A stretch of 52,116 nt of DNA. Source: a virus. Shown one piece after another: positions 20,379 through 26,966 of the stretch; the stretch's first letter is position 1; each line of letters starts with the position of its first letter. The stretch is taken from positions 1-52,116 of the IMG/VR virus record IMGVR_UViG_3300027704_000032. The stretch is one strand, 5' to 3'. The notes under the pieces are model-generated. The model saw only the letters and a list, made by a program, of their open reading frames with translations, did no database searches and was not told where the DNA came from. Position numbers and translations under genes: made by a program.

Positions 20379-20455
<77 letters not shown>

Positions 20456-20456
20456 G

Positions 20457-20535
20457 TACTTAAAGTATTACCTTAAGTAATATATTATTTATATATTATA
20501 ATAAGATTAAAATACTTTAAGTAATACTATAAGTA
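20457..20535. repeat. Array of palindromic TACTTWAAGTA motifs
   Basis: Palindromic copies TACTTAAAGTA (20457-20467) and TACTTTAAGTA (20513-20523), plus degenerate copies near 20469-20479 and at 20525-20535, lie just downstream of the minus-strand promoter. The same motif is repeated at 26515-26638 after a plus-strand promoter of the same build, including a shared 17-base identity at 20457-20473 and 26549-26565. It is probably an operator array. Confidence 0.65.
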
Positions 20536-20538
20536 TAT

Positions 20539-20567
20539 TATATAGGGGAGCTTGGACATTCTGTCAA
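20539..20567 (-). promoter_or_regulatory. Sigma70-type promoter upstream of tRNA-Arg and thyX
   Basis: On the minus strand TTGACA (20567-20562) is followed after 17 bases by TATATAAT (TATATA at 20544-20539; TATAAT with 19-base spacing is the alternative register). This is a near-perfect host-type promoter just after the peptidase gene. It should drive the tRNA and the nucleotide and replication genes beyond it. Confidence 0.75.
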
Positions 20568-20580
20568 GTGCGACATATTG

Positions 20581-21531
20581 TCAGAAGTATTTGTATACAT
20601 CACCGTCATTAAAATAATCCCCATAGTATTTGCTGTCGTCAATACCTGCCTCCTCCATTAGTGCATAATACTTGACACCCCATCCATCAAGTAGCTCGGC
20701 TACCTTGTGGGGGTGATCTTGTATCATTGTCTTGATTGCTTCTATGTTGTCCTCATCAGAGCTACTACCACTGTTACGCCAGTCACCCCATGTGTCCTCA
20801 ATCACAGCAGGGTCACGTCTGAACAACAACATATCCCAATCAGCATTGACAAGAGAGTCACATAAAAACTCTGCATATACAAGGTCTTGTGTCTCATTGA
20901 CACCGTGCTGCCCATAGTAACCAACACTGATGTTAGTACACTCAGACACTACAGAGGCATACTCGTTGCTATCAGTGTATGAGCCACCATCATCAGCAAC
21001 TAACTGTGACATGTACAGTGCATCAGCAAATGACATAGCAAATTCTTCTGAGGCTGTACGTAAGCCCATCTGGTGTGTGATGACTGACTTATCACCGAAC
21101 CTGTCGAAGGATATCACAGCGTCTATATGACGCAACCATTCTGGATCATCAGCTACCAATGCACGGCTACCCTTACAGCCTACCTCCTCAGCAGCATGTA
21201 TAACATACACACCCTTGACCTCAGCCTCAATCATATTCATGATTAGCCAGATACCAGTGGTACAATCAGCACCTAGGCAGCTGGATGTTGTAGCATCTGC
21301 GACTGATACTATGTCATTAACGACAAGGACATTCTGCATACCCTCAAGTCTATGCACCGTGTCGTGATGTGCAGTGAAGCACAGGTTAGGATTGTCACCC
21401 ACTGACAGTATGTAGTTACCGTGTATGTCAGGTAATCCAAAGGTAGGTTCGAGAAACCTCTGACAAAATTCTTTCTGCGTTTGGCTACCCTCTGGGCGCT
21501 TGTATCGCAGCATTTCTATTAGACTATACAT
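20581..21531 (-). CDS. Zinc metallopeptidase, M28/M42-like
   Basis: A 316-residue protein with the complete di-zinc exopeptidase set in order: AHHD (His55, Asp57), GADCTTG (Asp89), AAEEVG (Glu115, Glu116), SFDRFG (Asp143) and GQHG (His209). This matches aminopeptidase or carboxypeptidase families of clan MH; the exact family cannot be fixed by eye. The substrate is unknown: it may trim peptides for amino-acid supply or process a specific host peptide. It lacks a signal peptide, so it should act in the cytoplasm. The start is ATG 21531, overlapping the upstream stop (TAATG); an upstream in-frame GTG lacks a ribosome site. It is the last gene before the tRNA promoter. Confidence 0.85.
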   Translation of the reverse strand: MYSLIEMLRYKRPEGSQTQKEFCQRFLEPTFGLPDIHGNYILSVGDNPNLCFTAHHDTVHRLEGMQNVLVVNDIVSVADATTSSCLGADCTTGIWLIMNMIEAEVKGVYVIHAAEEVGCKGSRALVADDPEWLRHIDAVISFDRFGDKSVITHQMGLRTASEEFAMSFADALYMSQLVADDGGSYTDSNEYASVVSECTNISVGYYGQHGVNETQDLVYAEFLCDSLVNADWDMLLFRRDPAVIEDTWGDWRNSGSSSDEDNIEAIKTMIQDHPHKVAELLDGWGVKYYALMEEAGIDDSKYYGDYFNDGDVYKYF

Positions 21532-23192
21532 TATATATCCATCTCTTCTTGTTTGTTTTCCCACAGGCAGTCATCATTCAACTCCCATATACCCTCGTCA
21601 TCATTAAGCTCTTGTCTGGATACTGTGTCACCATCAACCAAGGTACACATGGCAACTACAAGGTGTAGCTCACCATCCCAGTCAGATAGAAAGTAATCAC
21701 CTATATCATCAGGTGATATCCATTCATCGTCACCCTCACAGTATTGTACATCATCTATGTGCCAATGCTCACCATCACTGCACAGCACAAAGCAGTCACC
21801 TTGATTAGCTGCCCACTGAGACACCACTAGCTCTTCCTTGATACCTGTACGGTCAATCCTATATGCGGTAACAGCATCGTCATTGTGGTGTGACTCCTCT
21901 GAATACTCACAGTAGAAGTGTTCGTCGTGAAAGCAACTCTCGCAGAAGTCCTCCTCACAATGCTCAGACCACATACTTTCATGCTCATCTAAGCCATCAC
22001 CACAGCGAGCACAGTGATTTTCATACCCACCAAGTACACCACTGTAGTTGCTTGCATCTATGTCACCACAATCATCCTGTATGAGGTACTTACCATCATC
22101 GGTCAAACTTAGCATACGTGGCTCAGTGTCTAGGTAAGGTGCAATGTAACGGCCCTCTCCCTCACCACTAGCAGGTATGGCAAGCAGCCTAGCAGCACCC
22201 CAGTGAGGAGTGTCTGTCTCTGCATCCATCTCACCTAGGTGATCCTCTATCATGTCCAGTGCTTGCTCTGATACACCGTAGATAGGCCCAGCTTGAGGGC
22301 CAATACAGTCATCACCTGTGTAAACCACACATCGGCCAGCAACTAGACCCTTCTGATCTAAGGCTGTGACTACGGTGAAGTCACCACTTGCATACGCCTC
22401 AGCTGGGTGACAGTCAAGGTGATCGAAGTCATACCGCATACAACTGGATGAAGAGGACTTACGATTGTGTGTGGTGCTGATGTTCTCCATCGGTGATTGA
22501 GTACCACCATAGGCCAGCTTGAATGCAGCCCTATCCTTGGCGACAGAGATAGTCATTGTCCTAGGTACAAATTCCTTAAGGAAATCATCTACTAACAGTA
22601 TGACCTGCTTGTGCTCCAACTCAGGGAACATGGTAGAGATAGCACGACCGGGCTTCATCACTGTATGCCTGTCATCCATCCTCATGTCAAGTGACTTGTA
22701 TATACTCATGCTACCATACTTGAGCTTAGACCTGATAGGCTGGAAGGCAGTGAGCCTACGCTGCCACTTGAATACACTGGTCGGAAAGCAGTCAGACCTA
22801 GCCTCAGCATGCCTACGTTTGGTCAAGCCGCCTAGCACTTTACCATCAGATGTATTATAGTGTTCGTAAAAGTAGGTTGTAAACCACTTGAATAACCTCA
22901 CATCCTCAGTGGAGTAATCAGGTATACTATCGAAAGGCCCCCACTCCTTGAGTACAGGGTCAGCCTCACCTTCATCTTTAAGGGTAACACGCTTGACTAC
23001 AAAGCCTGCTTCCTTAGGTAGATGTACCCACCACTTAGTCTTATTGTCTAGCTGGATGTACCCACCTATTAGATTACCATCCATTACGACATGACATTCA
23101 CTGTCGACATCATAGGACTTGTACTGCGTAACAGCCTCAGCCCCGCTGCCAATTATGCTATCTATATTGACAGCAACTAAAGAGTATTGCAT
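21531..23192 (-). CDS. Large early protein with zinc-finger-like cluster, unknown function
   Basis: A 553-residue protein starting at ATG 23192 behind GGAGG; a start 39 bases upstream is less likely. At about residues 390-435 it has a dense Cys/His cluster (CARCGDGLDEHES, HCEEDFCESCFHDEHFYC) that looks like two treble-clef or RING-like zinc sites. The remaining protein is acidic, with many Asp and short beta-like segments, and carries no enzyme motif I recognise. It is translationally coupled to the peptidase downstream, so they may act together. Early position suggests host takeover, but this is inference. Confidence 0.8.
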   Translation of the reverse strand: MQYSLVAVNIDSIIGSGAEAVTQYKSYDVDSECHVVMDGNLIGGYIQLDNKTKWWVHLPKEAGFVVKRVTLKDEGEADPVLKEWGPFDSIPDYSTEDVRLFKWFTTYFYEHYNTSDGKVLGGLTKRRHAEARSDCFPTSVFKWQRRLTAFQPIRSKLKYGSMSIYKSLDMRMDDRHTVMKPGRAISTMFPELEHKQVILLVDDFLKEFVPRTMTISVAKDRAAFKLAYGGTQSPMENISTTHNRKSSSSSCMRYDFDHLDCHPAEAYASGDFTVVTALDQKGLVAGRCVVYTGDDCIGPQAGPIYGVSEQALDMIEDHLGEMDAETDTPHWGAARLLAIPASGEGEGRYIAPYLDTEPRMLSLTDDGKYLIQDDCGDIDASNYSGVLGGYENHCARCGDGLDEHESMWSEHCEEDFCESCFHDEHFYCEYSEESHHNDDAVTAYRIDRTGIKEELVVSQWAANQGDCFVLCSDGEHWHIDDVQYCEGDDEWISPDDIGDYFLSDWDGELHLVVAMCTLVDGDTVSRQELNDDEGIWELNDDCLWENKQEEMDI

Positions 23193-23204
23193 TTTATATC
23201 CTCC

Positions 23205-23236
23205 AAAAGAATTGCCCCACACAATTAGCATGGGGC
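23205..23236 (-). terminator. Hairpin terminator or attenuator before the zinc-cluster gene
   Basis: On the minus strand GCCCCATGC, loop TAATT and GTGTGGGGC form a nine-pair stem (two wobbles), followed by AATTCTTTT. It stands between the HTH-like gene's stop (23243) and the GGAGG of the next gene, so it could end most transcripts there. Confidence 0.6.
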
Positions 23237-23242
23237 TATTGA

Positions 23243-23644
23243 TTAGGCATCAATGATACCTACCTTGTGTTCAGTGACAGTGATTGTCTTGAAGGTGTCA
23301 CCTACCTTCAGTTGCTTACGCACCTTAGCAAACTCAGTAGTAGACATCACCTTGCCATTCATGATGTAACCTCCACGCTTGACCAAGATGTTGAACCTAC
23401 CCTTAGCGATAGGCTTCACCACCTTAGCACGATCAAGGTTAGGGTTACGGGCTGCTGACTTAGGCAAGAAGCCAAGACGCTTGTAAGCCTTGGACATTGC
23501 ACCAGTACTCATGTCGATATTAAAGTGAGCCATTGTATCAGGTGCAGTATGATTGCTGTAATACTCACAGATTTCTAACCACTTTGCAGCAGTGAGGTTT
23601 AGTTTGATGCCTTGCTTACGAGTTGTTGTTGTAGTATTAGCCAT
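23243..23644 (-). CDS. Putative HTH DNA-binding protein
   Basis: A 133-residue basic protein. Residues 18-58 (LTAAKWLEICEYYSNHT, then DMSTGAMSKAYKRLGF) look like a homeodomain-like helix-turn-helix, with the second helix starting at the acidic-Ser-Thr-Gly turn. The C-terminal half contains a beta-rich segment (NILVKRGGYIMNGKVMS). It is the best candidate in the window for a sequence-specific regulator of the operator-like arrays, but the assignment is by pattern only. Strong ribosome site GAGGAG before ATG 23644. Confidence 0.7.
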   Translation of the reverse strand: MANTTTTTRKQGIKLNLTAAKWLEICEYYSNHTAPDTMAHFNIDMSTGAMSKAYKRLGFLPKSAARNPNLDRAKVVKPIAKGRFNILVKRGGYIMNGKVMSTTEFAKVRKQLKVGDTFKTITVTEHKVGIIDA

Positions 23645-24499: not shown

Positions 24500-25030
24500 T
24501 TATGCAGCAACTTTCAAGCCTGTGCGTTGGGCCTGCAACGCTGCGATCATCACCTCAAGTTGATCAGGATTAGTTTTCAACTGACGTTCTGCCCACACCA
24601 TTGCATCAAATTCTTTTGGTGCTGCCTCAGGCTTAGGGAAAGCACTGTCAAATTTATCATCTTTGATAGTGCACTTGACAATGCATAGCTGCTCAATCGC
24701 AGCAATGGCATTCAGTACCAACACCTGATCAACCTCACCATCAATATCGACAGCGCACTTGCCGTCTTTGAAAATCAATTTGACGTTAGGCAATGCCACC
24801 GCAAGTATGCGCTTCAAAGGTGCAGCGAACCGCTTGCCAGTAGCATCAGCTTTATTCTTGCCGAATTTCTTGCCGTTCACATAGGCCGCCATACGATACA
24901 AAGGCAAGTTATTTTTATCAGCAAAACATTCAAGCACTTGCTTACTTGACTTGAAAAACCCAAGCTCAGCACCACGAGAATTAGATACAAATTTCTCGAC
25001 ATGATTAGTTTCAACATTTTTAATAGACAT
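24500..25030 (-). CDS. First gene of the early arm, unknown function
   Basis: A 176-residue protein, start at ATG 25030 with GGAG eight bases upstream; an open frame extends 29 codons further but lacks a ribosome site. The protein is mixed alpha/beta with a basic centre (VNGKKFGKNKADATGKRF) and an Ala-rich C-terminal helix (EVMIAALQAQRTGL). I do not recognise it. It is first in the leftward arm, has its own terminator and is preceded by a leader of several hundred bases, so it is likely an abundant immediate-early product such as a host-takeover factor. Confidence 0.75.
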   Translation of the reverse strand: MSIKNVETNHVEKFVSNSRGAELGFFKSSKQVLECFADKNNLPLYRMAAYVNGKKFGKNKADATGKRFAAPLKRILAVALPNVKLIFKDGKCAVDIDGEVDQVLVLNAIAAIEQLCIVKCTIKDDKFDSAFPKPEAAPKEFDAMVWAERQLKTNPDQLEVMIAALQAQRTGLKVAA

Positions 25031-25268
25031 AGCATTTCTCCATTTTTTTGCCATACAACAAAACACACCACACCATGCGATGTGCTTTGCATGTTGGCAC
25101 ATGCAGCCCCTCACCATACAATCCCCCTTGATATATCTAAAGGGTAGCTTTCGCAGGACACACCAACTTGCACATAGACTACCACCTATATGATGGGCGC
25201 ATGTGTTTTGGTGTTTATATCTGAATTTCTAGGGCCGCTTTTTGTTTTAAAGTTGTCACCCACGGGGA

Positions 25269-25661: not shown

Positions 25662-25692
25662 AGTATAAGGGAATTTTTTACCAAATGGTCAA
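25662..25692 (-). promoter_or_regulatory. Leftward early promoter candidate with CCAAATGG-type box
   Basis: On the minus strand TTGACC (25692-25687) is followed after 19 bases by TATACT (25667-25662). The -35 is embedded in the 17-base sequence TTGACCATTTGGTAAAA, which recurs in the opposite direction at 26237-26253. The near-palindrome ACCATTTGGT just after the -35 could be an operator. Confidence 0.5.
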
Positions 25693-25694
25693 GA

Positions 25695-25984
25695 ATACAG
25701 TGAACGAATAGGGAACAAAGGTTTTGAGGTACCAAAGCCCCACAATATTCCTTTCGTTGCTGCATGGGGCTAAAATCAGGCTCTCTGTCGTGTTCACTGT
25801 ATGTTCTACTACCTGTTCACGGTATGTTCTACTCAGGGTGGATAGGTCAGTATCACTTACCTATTACTCAGGGTGAGGGGGGATAGGTCAGTAGAGCTGA
25901 CGTATTGGGGGGATGTGTTTTATTTCTTACTTCCCTCTTGCGAATGACTCGCAATCTCACAGAATTGTAAACAAACCGTGAACA
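25695..25984. repeat. Four TGTTCACNGT motifs, two direct and two inverted
   Basis: Two 20-base copies, TGTTCACTGT plus ATGTTCTACT (25791-25810) and TGTTCACGGT plus the same ten bases (25814-25833), differ at one position and repeat every 23 bases. Inverted copies ATACAGTGAAC (25695-25705) and ACCGTGAACA (25975-25984) lie about 90 and 140 bases to either side. This resembles iterons or a regulator binding cluster. Confidence 0.6.
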
Positions 25985-26236
25985 TGCCCCAATAATAGTG
26001 TTACATTGTGCATAATATTGTGTAATAACAGCAGTTTAACTGTGAGTGTTCCCCTTTTGTTCTATAGGTCAGTGTTATTGACCCATTGACTACCCCCCGC
26101 ATGGGCCACCCCACCCTCCCCCGTATGCGTATACACACAATGACAGCGGGGAGTATTTTACAATCTGTTAACCACATGTTAATACAACCCCATATGAGTA
26201 TTACTCAGAGTAAAACTTGTTTCCTACTAGTAATAT

Positions 26237-26267
26237 TTGACCATTTGGTAAAATTTCTAGTTATTAT
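26237..26267 (+). promoter_or_regulatory. Rightward promoter candidate, mirror of the leftward one
   Basis: TTGACC (26237-26242), 19 bases, TATTAT (26262-26267). It shares TTGACCATTTGGTAAAA with the minus-strand element at 25692-25676 and has the same spacer length, so both may be controlled by one factor. The -10 is imperfect and the 19-base spacer is long for sigma70. Confidence 0.4.
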
Positions 26268-26485: not shown

Positions 26486-26513
26486 TTGACATCGGCGCTC
26501 AGAGTGCTATATA
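26486..26513 (+). promoter_or_regulatory. Sigma70-type rightward promoter with operator array
   Basis: TTGACA (26486-26491) and TATATAAT (TATATA at 26508-26513, spacer 16; TATAAT with spacer 18). It is followed directly by the TACTTWAAGTA array. The arrangement copies that of the leftward promoter at 20567-20539, including CTATATAATA and a CTTATAGTAT stretch just downstream. It should drive the lysis and late genes. Confidence 0.7.
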
Positions 26514-26514
26514 A

Positions 26515-26638
26515 TACTTATAGTATATACTTTAAGTAACTCTGAGTGTACTTAAAGTATTACCTCTAGTATTTATTATTTTTATAATATATAATTAATA
26601 CATATTTAAAGTAATACTTAAAGTAATACTTAAAGTAC
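26515..26638. repeat. Second array of TACTTWAAGTA palindromes
   Basis: TACTTATAGTA (26515-26525), TACTTTAAGTA (26528-26538), TACTTAAAGTA (26549-26559, 26615-26625 and 26628-26638), with degenerate copies between them. The last two repeat with 13-base periodicity. The whole segment lies between the rightward promoter and the first gene. Confidence 0.65.
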
Positions 26639-26681
26639 CCCTTTTAGATGTACAATTTTTTTGTCGTAGGTCTAAAAAGAC

Positions 26682-26709
26682 TTGACCTCAAAAGATTTAA
26701 AGGTATAAC
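26682..26709 (+). promoter_or_regulatory. Promoter immediately before the first late gene
   Basis: TTGACC (26682-26687), 16 bases, TATAAC (26704-26709). The ATG at 26715 follows only five bases later, so a transcript from here would be leaderless or start inside the gene. It shares TTGACMTCA, the 16-base spacer and GTATAACTAG with the capsid promoter at 41232-41259. Confidence 0.55.
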
Positions 26710-26714
26710 TAGTA

Positions 26715-26966
26715 ATGTCAAAACCTAAAATGTTTGCTTCAGACTCCGTACTGGAAGAATTTTATTTAGCTCTAGCTGGTAAAGATGAAGCAAGGATGCG
26801 CAGAGTACACATACCGAGATCGGATGTATTTTACGTAAGAGAAAAGATTCACCAAGACACTGGAACCAAATATACATTAGATCACGTTGAGAGAGCTATG
26901 TACTTGGAAGGTATGCTTGAACGTAAAGACGTACTTGACCCTGGACGTAAGAGAGAATACGAATGA
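26715..26966 (+). CDS. Small hypothetical protein, first gene of the rightward arm
   Basis: An 83-residue charged, mostly helical protein (MSKPKMFASDSVLEEFYLAL..., ending in DPGRKREYE). A second ATG lies five codons in (26730) and would be the start if the adjacent promoter fires at its normal distance. It overlaps the EF-hand gene by four bases and so belongs to the lysis cassette operon, but I see no lysis-related feature. Confidence 0.7.
   Translation: MSKPKMFASDSVLEEFYLALAGKDEARMRRVHIPRSDVFYVREKIHQDTGTKYTLDHVERAMYLEGMLERKDVLDPGRKREYE

Follow-up and report, generated by a model that had tools for sequence, protein, structure and literature searches.

Do two distant promoters that point away from each other, each followed by an array of the same short palindromes, answer to a single regulator? 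If so, is that regulator a product of the phage or of its host, and which decision in the life of the phage would it govern? These questions are raised by the record of an uncultured virus, a stretch of 52,116 bases that was analysed over its whole length and is referred to here as the window.

The window derives from a marine bacteriophage of podovirus type. Its terminase large subunit is of the HMO-2011 type, with amino acid sequence identities of 84.8% to the orthologue from Roseobacter phage CRP-13 and 65.0% to that from HMO-2011. The DNA polymerase has its best match among cultured marine isolates in CRP-6 (52.6% identity) and its overall top match, at 54.0%, in an oyster-associated phage. 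Phages of the HMO-2011 type belong to the groups that dominate in the ocean, and some carry integrases or are able to lysogenise. The window combines HMO-2011-type structural genes with a replication module that appears to be of CRP-6 type and so matches, by sequence comparison, the hybrids known as group II MAVGs. The group II MAVGs share this combination of structural and replication genes, and an integrase is present in ten of the 12 described genomes (PMC8528129). The structural genes are the same as those of the HMO-2011-type and CRP-9-type roseophages and of the group II MAVGs (PMC8528129, PMC9038755). A homology search identified no match to an integrase in the window, although the gene is present in 62 relatives. 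This is no bar to group II membership, since an integrase is missing from two of the 12 described genomes as well.

Promoters and arrays in the window

A sequence-only reading of the window had proposed that two distant promoters in opposite directions carry one type of operator-like array. Closer reading of the sequence and comparison with shuffled sequences bear this out, and in a stronger form than first stated. The two arrays are approximately 6 kb apart and face outwards (Table 1). The right promoter scores 12 out of 12 against a sigma-70-type consensus, as TTGACA-18-TATAAT. In the left array the first palindrome starts 1 nt past TATATAAT, the proximal element is kept in relatives, and the distal element is placed some 55-56 bp from it. 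The arrays start at the expected point of transcription initiation, since the first unit begins either at the end of TATATAAT or 1 nt after it. The 17-base identity between the arrays noted in the first reading is confirmed as exact, with TACTTAAAGTATTACCT occupying both 20457-20473 and 26549-26565.

The motif TACTTWAAGTA, with at most one mismatch, is found at 13 sites in the window, where shuffled sequences gave 2.06 +/- 1.31 and never more than 6. Ten of the 13 fall inside the two arrays. A scan that made no use of the motif ranks the same two arrays first and second among the inverted repeats of the whole genome. Both are also among the three most AT-rich 120-bp segments of the window. Chance or AT-richness as the source of the arrays is ruled out by the shuffles in combination with the conservation described below.

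Table 1. Positions of the promoters, palindromes and genes at and between the two arrays of the window.
Feature	Position	Strand	Details and basis
tRNA-Arg (TCT), first gene behind left array	20379..20455	-	ARAGORN
Left array, distal element	20457..20479	-	Two 11-bp palindromes, 20479-20469 and 20467-20457
Left array, proximal element	20513..20535	-	Two 11-bp palindromes, 20535-20525 and 20523-20513, 12 bp apart
Left promoter	20537..20567	-	TTGACA 20567-20562, 17-nt spacer, TATATAAT 20544-20537; sequence reading, consensus sigma-70-type
TGACANNNTGTCA-type palindrome	20571..20583	-	Runs from peptidase stop codon, directly upstream of left -35
M28-family peptidase, last gene of block between arrays	20581..21564	-	PF04389 E=1.1e-5; PHROG 4191 E=1.4e-73
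566-aa protein between arrays	21531..23231	-	No family match; remote relative next to zinc peptidase in Rhizobium phage Pasto
133-aa helix-turn-helix protein, earlier candidate regulator	23243..23644	-	Three-helix N-terminal domain modelled, pLDDT ~80-86
205-aa protein, first gene of leftward block between arrays	24500..25117	-	Slot held by non-similar families in same-array relatives
Right promoter	26486..26515	+	TTGACA 26486-26491, 16-nt spacer, TATATAAT 26508-26515; sequence reading
Right array, proximal part	26515..26571	+	Palindromes at 26515, 26528 and 26549, degenerate one at 26561
Right array, distal part	26603..26637	+	Three palindromes at 26603, 26615 and 26627, 12-bp spacing
Second promoter-like sequence	26682..26709	+	TTGACC, 16 nt, TATAAC; ends 5 nt before ATG of 83-aa gene
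83-aa conserved protein, first gene behind right array	26715..26966	+	596 or more related loci among viral contigs

The sequences that flank the arrays display features of their own. The TGACANNNTGTCA-type palindrome at the peptidase stop codon occupies an equivalent place in 22 of the 33 distinct relatives that have units, mostly 46-52 bp ahead of the first array unit, and is possibly an activator site or a second repressor site. On the other side of the left array, the tRNA-Arg region (20379-20455) shares 96% identity with that of CRP-13 across 78 bp although the DNA around it is unrelated, which suggests either a recent exchange or a tie to an attachment site. Behind the right array, the TTGACC-16-TATAAC sequence, a putative promoter, recurs at an equivalent position in relatives; its closeness to the ATG suggests that the 83-aa gene may be read from a leaderless transcript. 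A TTTTGTCGT stretch lies ahead of this promoter-like sequence (within 26660-26715) in nearly all of the relatives examined.

Conservation of the layout among relatives

Relatives were collected by way of the M28 peptidase that adjoins the left array (78 loci) and the 83-aa protein that adjoins the right array. Of 35 distinct relatives, 21 have two or more units at the left site, no further than 260 bp from the stop codon of the peptidase; some others carry the left array further downstream. Of 33 distinct relatives, 29 have two or more units at the right site, ahead of the 83-aa gene. Single shuffles of the left- and right-site stretches gave none with two or more units. The -35 and -10 elements followed by palindromes, as seen at the left promoter, are likewise present in most relatives, and in the longer ones the motif is clustered at two places approximately 5.6-6.8 kb apart, and single sites elsewhere are few. 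Absence of the motif from relatives would have counted against the first reading; the motif is kept, at both sites, across dozens of relatives, and this outcome favours that reading. Within the palindrome unit, C3 and G9 are approximately 94-95% conserved.

The arrangement is highly specific to these phages. A blind scan of 2.9 million viral contigs detected the exact tandem pair in 23. The phage group of the window accounts for at least 21 of these: 20 carry genes of the group on the stretch examined and one more is the L133 contig.

The unit itself is less constant. In the sister clade closest to the window (L004-L013) it is the 10-bp TACTTAAGTA. CRP-9 and CRP-13 possess two arrays at the same two operons as the window, with TACTANTAGTA-like and TACYNNYAGTA-like units, respectively, and in both phages the genes between the arrays are unrelated to those of the window. 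The right array of CRP-9 and that of CRP-13 each find their best, or equal best, match in the left array of the same phage. In several relatives the left array is matched better by an array of another phage than by its own, with the caveat that own-array matching does not discriminate in genomes with TACTTWAAGTA units because most of them share one unit. A TACT array was not found in CRP-2, CRP-207 or CRP-6; in CRP-2 a pair of AACATTAATGTT palindromes is positioned close to the right promoter. On the basis of these comparisons the layout of paired arrays is kept while the palindrome sequence diverges between phages.

Probable operators of a joint switch, and the alternatives

What function might such arrays serve? 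On balance we think it probable that they are operator clusters of one phage-specific DNA-binding regulator that switches both promoters together. Dimers of the regulator would bind the tandem 10-12-bp palindromes, with ACTT/AAGT as the half-site in the window, from the expected transcription start. The bound regulator would block the leftward promoter, and with it the tRNA-Arg, the integrase (in most relatives), thymidylate synthase and the replication genes, and would simultaneously block the rightward promoter that leads into the lysis, packaging and structural genes. Cooperation or looping, as at the lambda OL and OR operators, could link the pairs of elements, which are spaced by approximately 55 bp within an array and by approximately 6 kb from one array to the other. 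Protein binding, repression, joint switching of both promoters and a role in lysogeny are what we infer from the layout. Three results weigh against this reading: no gene of the intervening block recurs in every array-bearing genome, all of these genomes share a replication module, and in several relatives the array of another phage is the better match to the left one. That a single factor might switch both promoters, as first suggested, appears the best reading of a motif kept at both sites and of the within-phage likeness of the arrays in CRP-9 and CRP-13.

The logic of the proposed switch is comparable to that of lambda OL/OR, although we do not claim homology. Lambda likewise has two operator clusters at two outward-facing promoters, PL and PR, each cluster consisting of several short palindromes with a block of genes between them; here the operator role is predicted from the DNA sequence. 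The left operon of lambda includes the integrase, as in most relatives of the window, and in heteroimmune phages the unit sequence differs between related phages, as it does in this group. Four differences should be noted. No CI or Cro homologue was found between the arrays, the units of the window are downstream of the -10 element and not across the promoter, the arrays are separated by approximately 6 kb as opposed to 2.3 kb in lambda (PMC5880393), and the block between the arrays may be unrelated in phages with similar arrays.

In the relatives that encode a tyrosine integrase (PF00589, E=1e-20 for one of them), it is usually the first gene of any size to follow the left array, and in the window the short reading frame that precedes the integrase in relatives is still there. 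It is plausible that the array pair constitutes a lysogeny switch because most relatives have the integrase in the left operon. A phage of the wider HMO-2011 group, CRP-3, has been shown to integrate into the host genome (PMC6918029); an alignment search with the peptidase found no prophage with a window-type peptidase in bacterial genomes. The first reading had spoken of a possible undescribed timing circuit. The co-regulation in that proposal is supported as the best reading, and the arrays may form a lysogeny switch instead of serving timing alone. A wider proposal, possible rather than probable, is that abundant marine podoviruses possess a lysis-lysogeny switch not yet described, in which a regulator belonging to a new family would act on matched arrays at both outward promoters. 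Its specificity would change between phages while the layout is kept, and matched arrays would be maintained even in hybrid genomes that draw their replication and structural modules from separate lineages.

A term search of the paper that describes CRP-9 and CRP-13 found no mention of promoters or repressors. The literature searched, with subscription journals outside its coverage, contained nothing on promoters, operators or repressors of HMO-2011-type phages or roseophages. Matched, diversifying arrays mark both key promoters of these phages. They could be used to type phages by regulatory specificity, and they make the regulator findable using CRP-9 and CRP-13, both cultured on one host strain.

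Might the arrays instead be promoter-linked origins of replication, with iterons in an AT-rich region behind the promoter to which a replication protein binds? The primary origin of T7 consists of a promoter and an AT-rich region. What is alike is the order of a promoter and then an AT-rich stretch with ACTTAAAG-like repeats; the window differs in having two copies, at both operon starts, that are made of palindromes. We regard an origin function as unlikely. One of the arrays heads the operon of lysis and structural genes, and the units are palindromes that begin where transcription is expected to start, as operators typically do. Consistent with an origin, all of the array-bearing genomes examined encode a primase-helicase, a family A polymerase, an SSB-like protein and a 53-aa protein, a set absent from CRP-207, and few stretches are as AT-rich as the arrays. 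CRP-6 can be cited on both sides. The promoter of its replication module bears tandem repeats of another kind, yet the phage, with a module of the type seen in the window, is without a TACT array. Repeats of ACTTAAAG also occur behind a T7-type promoter in a Klebsiella phage.

Two observations concern the repeats in these other phages. In CRP-6 (MK613348.1, 44500-44900) approximately seven GTTGCAAAAATGTCAC-like repeats and several CCTCCGATGGAAAA repeats are found upstream of the gene that opens the replication module. In Klebsiella phage 5OI88 (L383, 8828-8900) three ACTTAAAG repeats follow a promoter after the gene for a T7-type RNA polymerase, near the location of the T7 primary origin.

A function at the level of RNA, with a long 5' hairpin on both transcripts acting in stability or in antitermination, is distinctly improbable. 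The put elements of HK022 and the nut elements of lambda are related elements directly behind two early promoters, and the arrays are likewise behind two promoters; unlike put and nut, they fail a strand-specific wobble test. Most arrays do fold into long hairpins (z down to -9.4), and no other inverted repeats in the window or in CRP-9 rank as high as the arrays, but tandem palindromes are self-complementary by construction. Selection on RNA predicts that G.U pairs exceed A.C mismatches on the transcribed strand. The sense-strand counts are 31 G.U against 17 A.C on the left, and the bias is reversed on the right (14 against 36). The left and right biases agree on one strand of the genome, so a strand mutation bias could explain them. 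Furthermore, in 16 of 18 right arrays it is the antisense strand that folds into the more stable structure, and pairing within the spacer by itself is weak (p<0.05 in five of 26). The wobble and strand tests thus give no consistent sense-strand excess of G.U or of stability, and an RNA hairpin as the main function is rejected.

Candidate regulators and the block between the arrays

If the arrays are operators, which protein binds them? The first reading stated that no CI-type repressor is present, and this holds for the annotations examined: neither Pfam nor PHROGs gave such a match among the proteins scanned. Among the genes encoded between the arrays, none recurs in every genome that has arrays.

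The helix-turn-helix protein encoded at 23243-23644 had been named as a possible factor. It is located between the arrays, its family recurs in that slot, and one relative (L022) resembles D5-like regulators. On modelling, the three-helix N-terminal domain makes a helix-turn-helix plausible; the model has no significant fold match in the PDB. The window and L003-L013 differ in both the recognition helix and the unit length, a point in its favour, but the recognition helix also varies among L033, L036, L043, L045, L061 and L075, in which the left arrays are nearly identical. The protein is missing, moreover, from the fully read block of L002, with a left array nearly the same as that of the window, although L002 is a partial contig and the rest of that genome may contain a copy. 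It is also missing from CRP-9 and CRP-13. We consider it very doubtful that this protein is the array-binding regulator. As a separate observation, among the very close relatives L033, L036, L043, L044, L045, L061 and L075 the protein varies chiefly in the recognition helix, as if its target were under diversifying selection.

Four other proteins were considered and set aside. The sequence pattern of the 83-aa protein suggested an Arc-like ribbon-helix-helix regulator; the AlphaFold2 model is all-helical (pLDDT 69), and there is no PDB fold match, no PDB sequence match and no Pfam support. It is the one adjacent protein that is universal, and as an array binder it is rejected on the grounds that its core is also conserved in phages without TACT arrays. 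The window and the relatives with 10-bp units share 90-94% identity in this protein. The 205-aa product of the first block gene is discounted by the changing occupancy of its slot beside the same arrays, and the 566-aa protein by its absence from the array-bearing CRP-9, CRP-13, G007 and G012. An SSB-like protein of 183 aa is common to all array genomes and, with its acidic tail, is read as a single-strand binding protein.

A host regulator, also offered in the first reading, gains something from our failure to assign one to the phage, but is highly unlikely because the exact tandem pair is nearly absent from bacterial genomes (three occurrences in 257 Gb of bacterial and archaeal sequence, on unrelated contigs with no phage-group genes on the stretches examined) and because CRP-2, CRP-9 and CRP-13 infect a single strain, FZCC0023, with three different arrangements, that of CRP-2 being without a TACT array.

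The region between the arrays also contains repeats of other kinds. A non-coding region of 1.4 kb that separates the right array from the first block gene holds a perfect 17-base inverted pair of TTGACCATTTGGTAAAA, at 25676-25692 on the minus strand and 26237-26253 on the plus strand, and each copy resembles the start of an outward-facing promoter. The pair is also found in L109 and, with one mismatch, in L114. Non-coding sequence at 25835-26087 comprises direct repeats, three of them around GATAGGTCAGTA, and the 20-bp repeat TGTTCACNGTATGTTCTACT in two copies.
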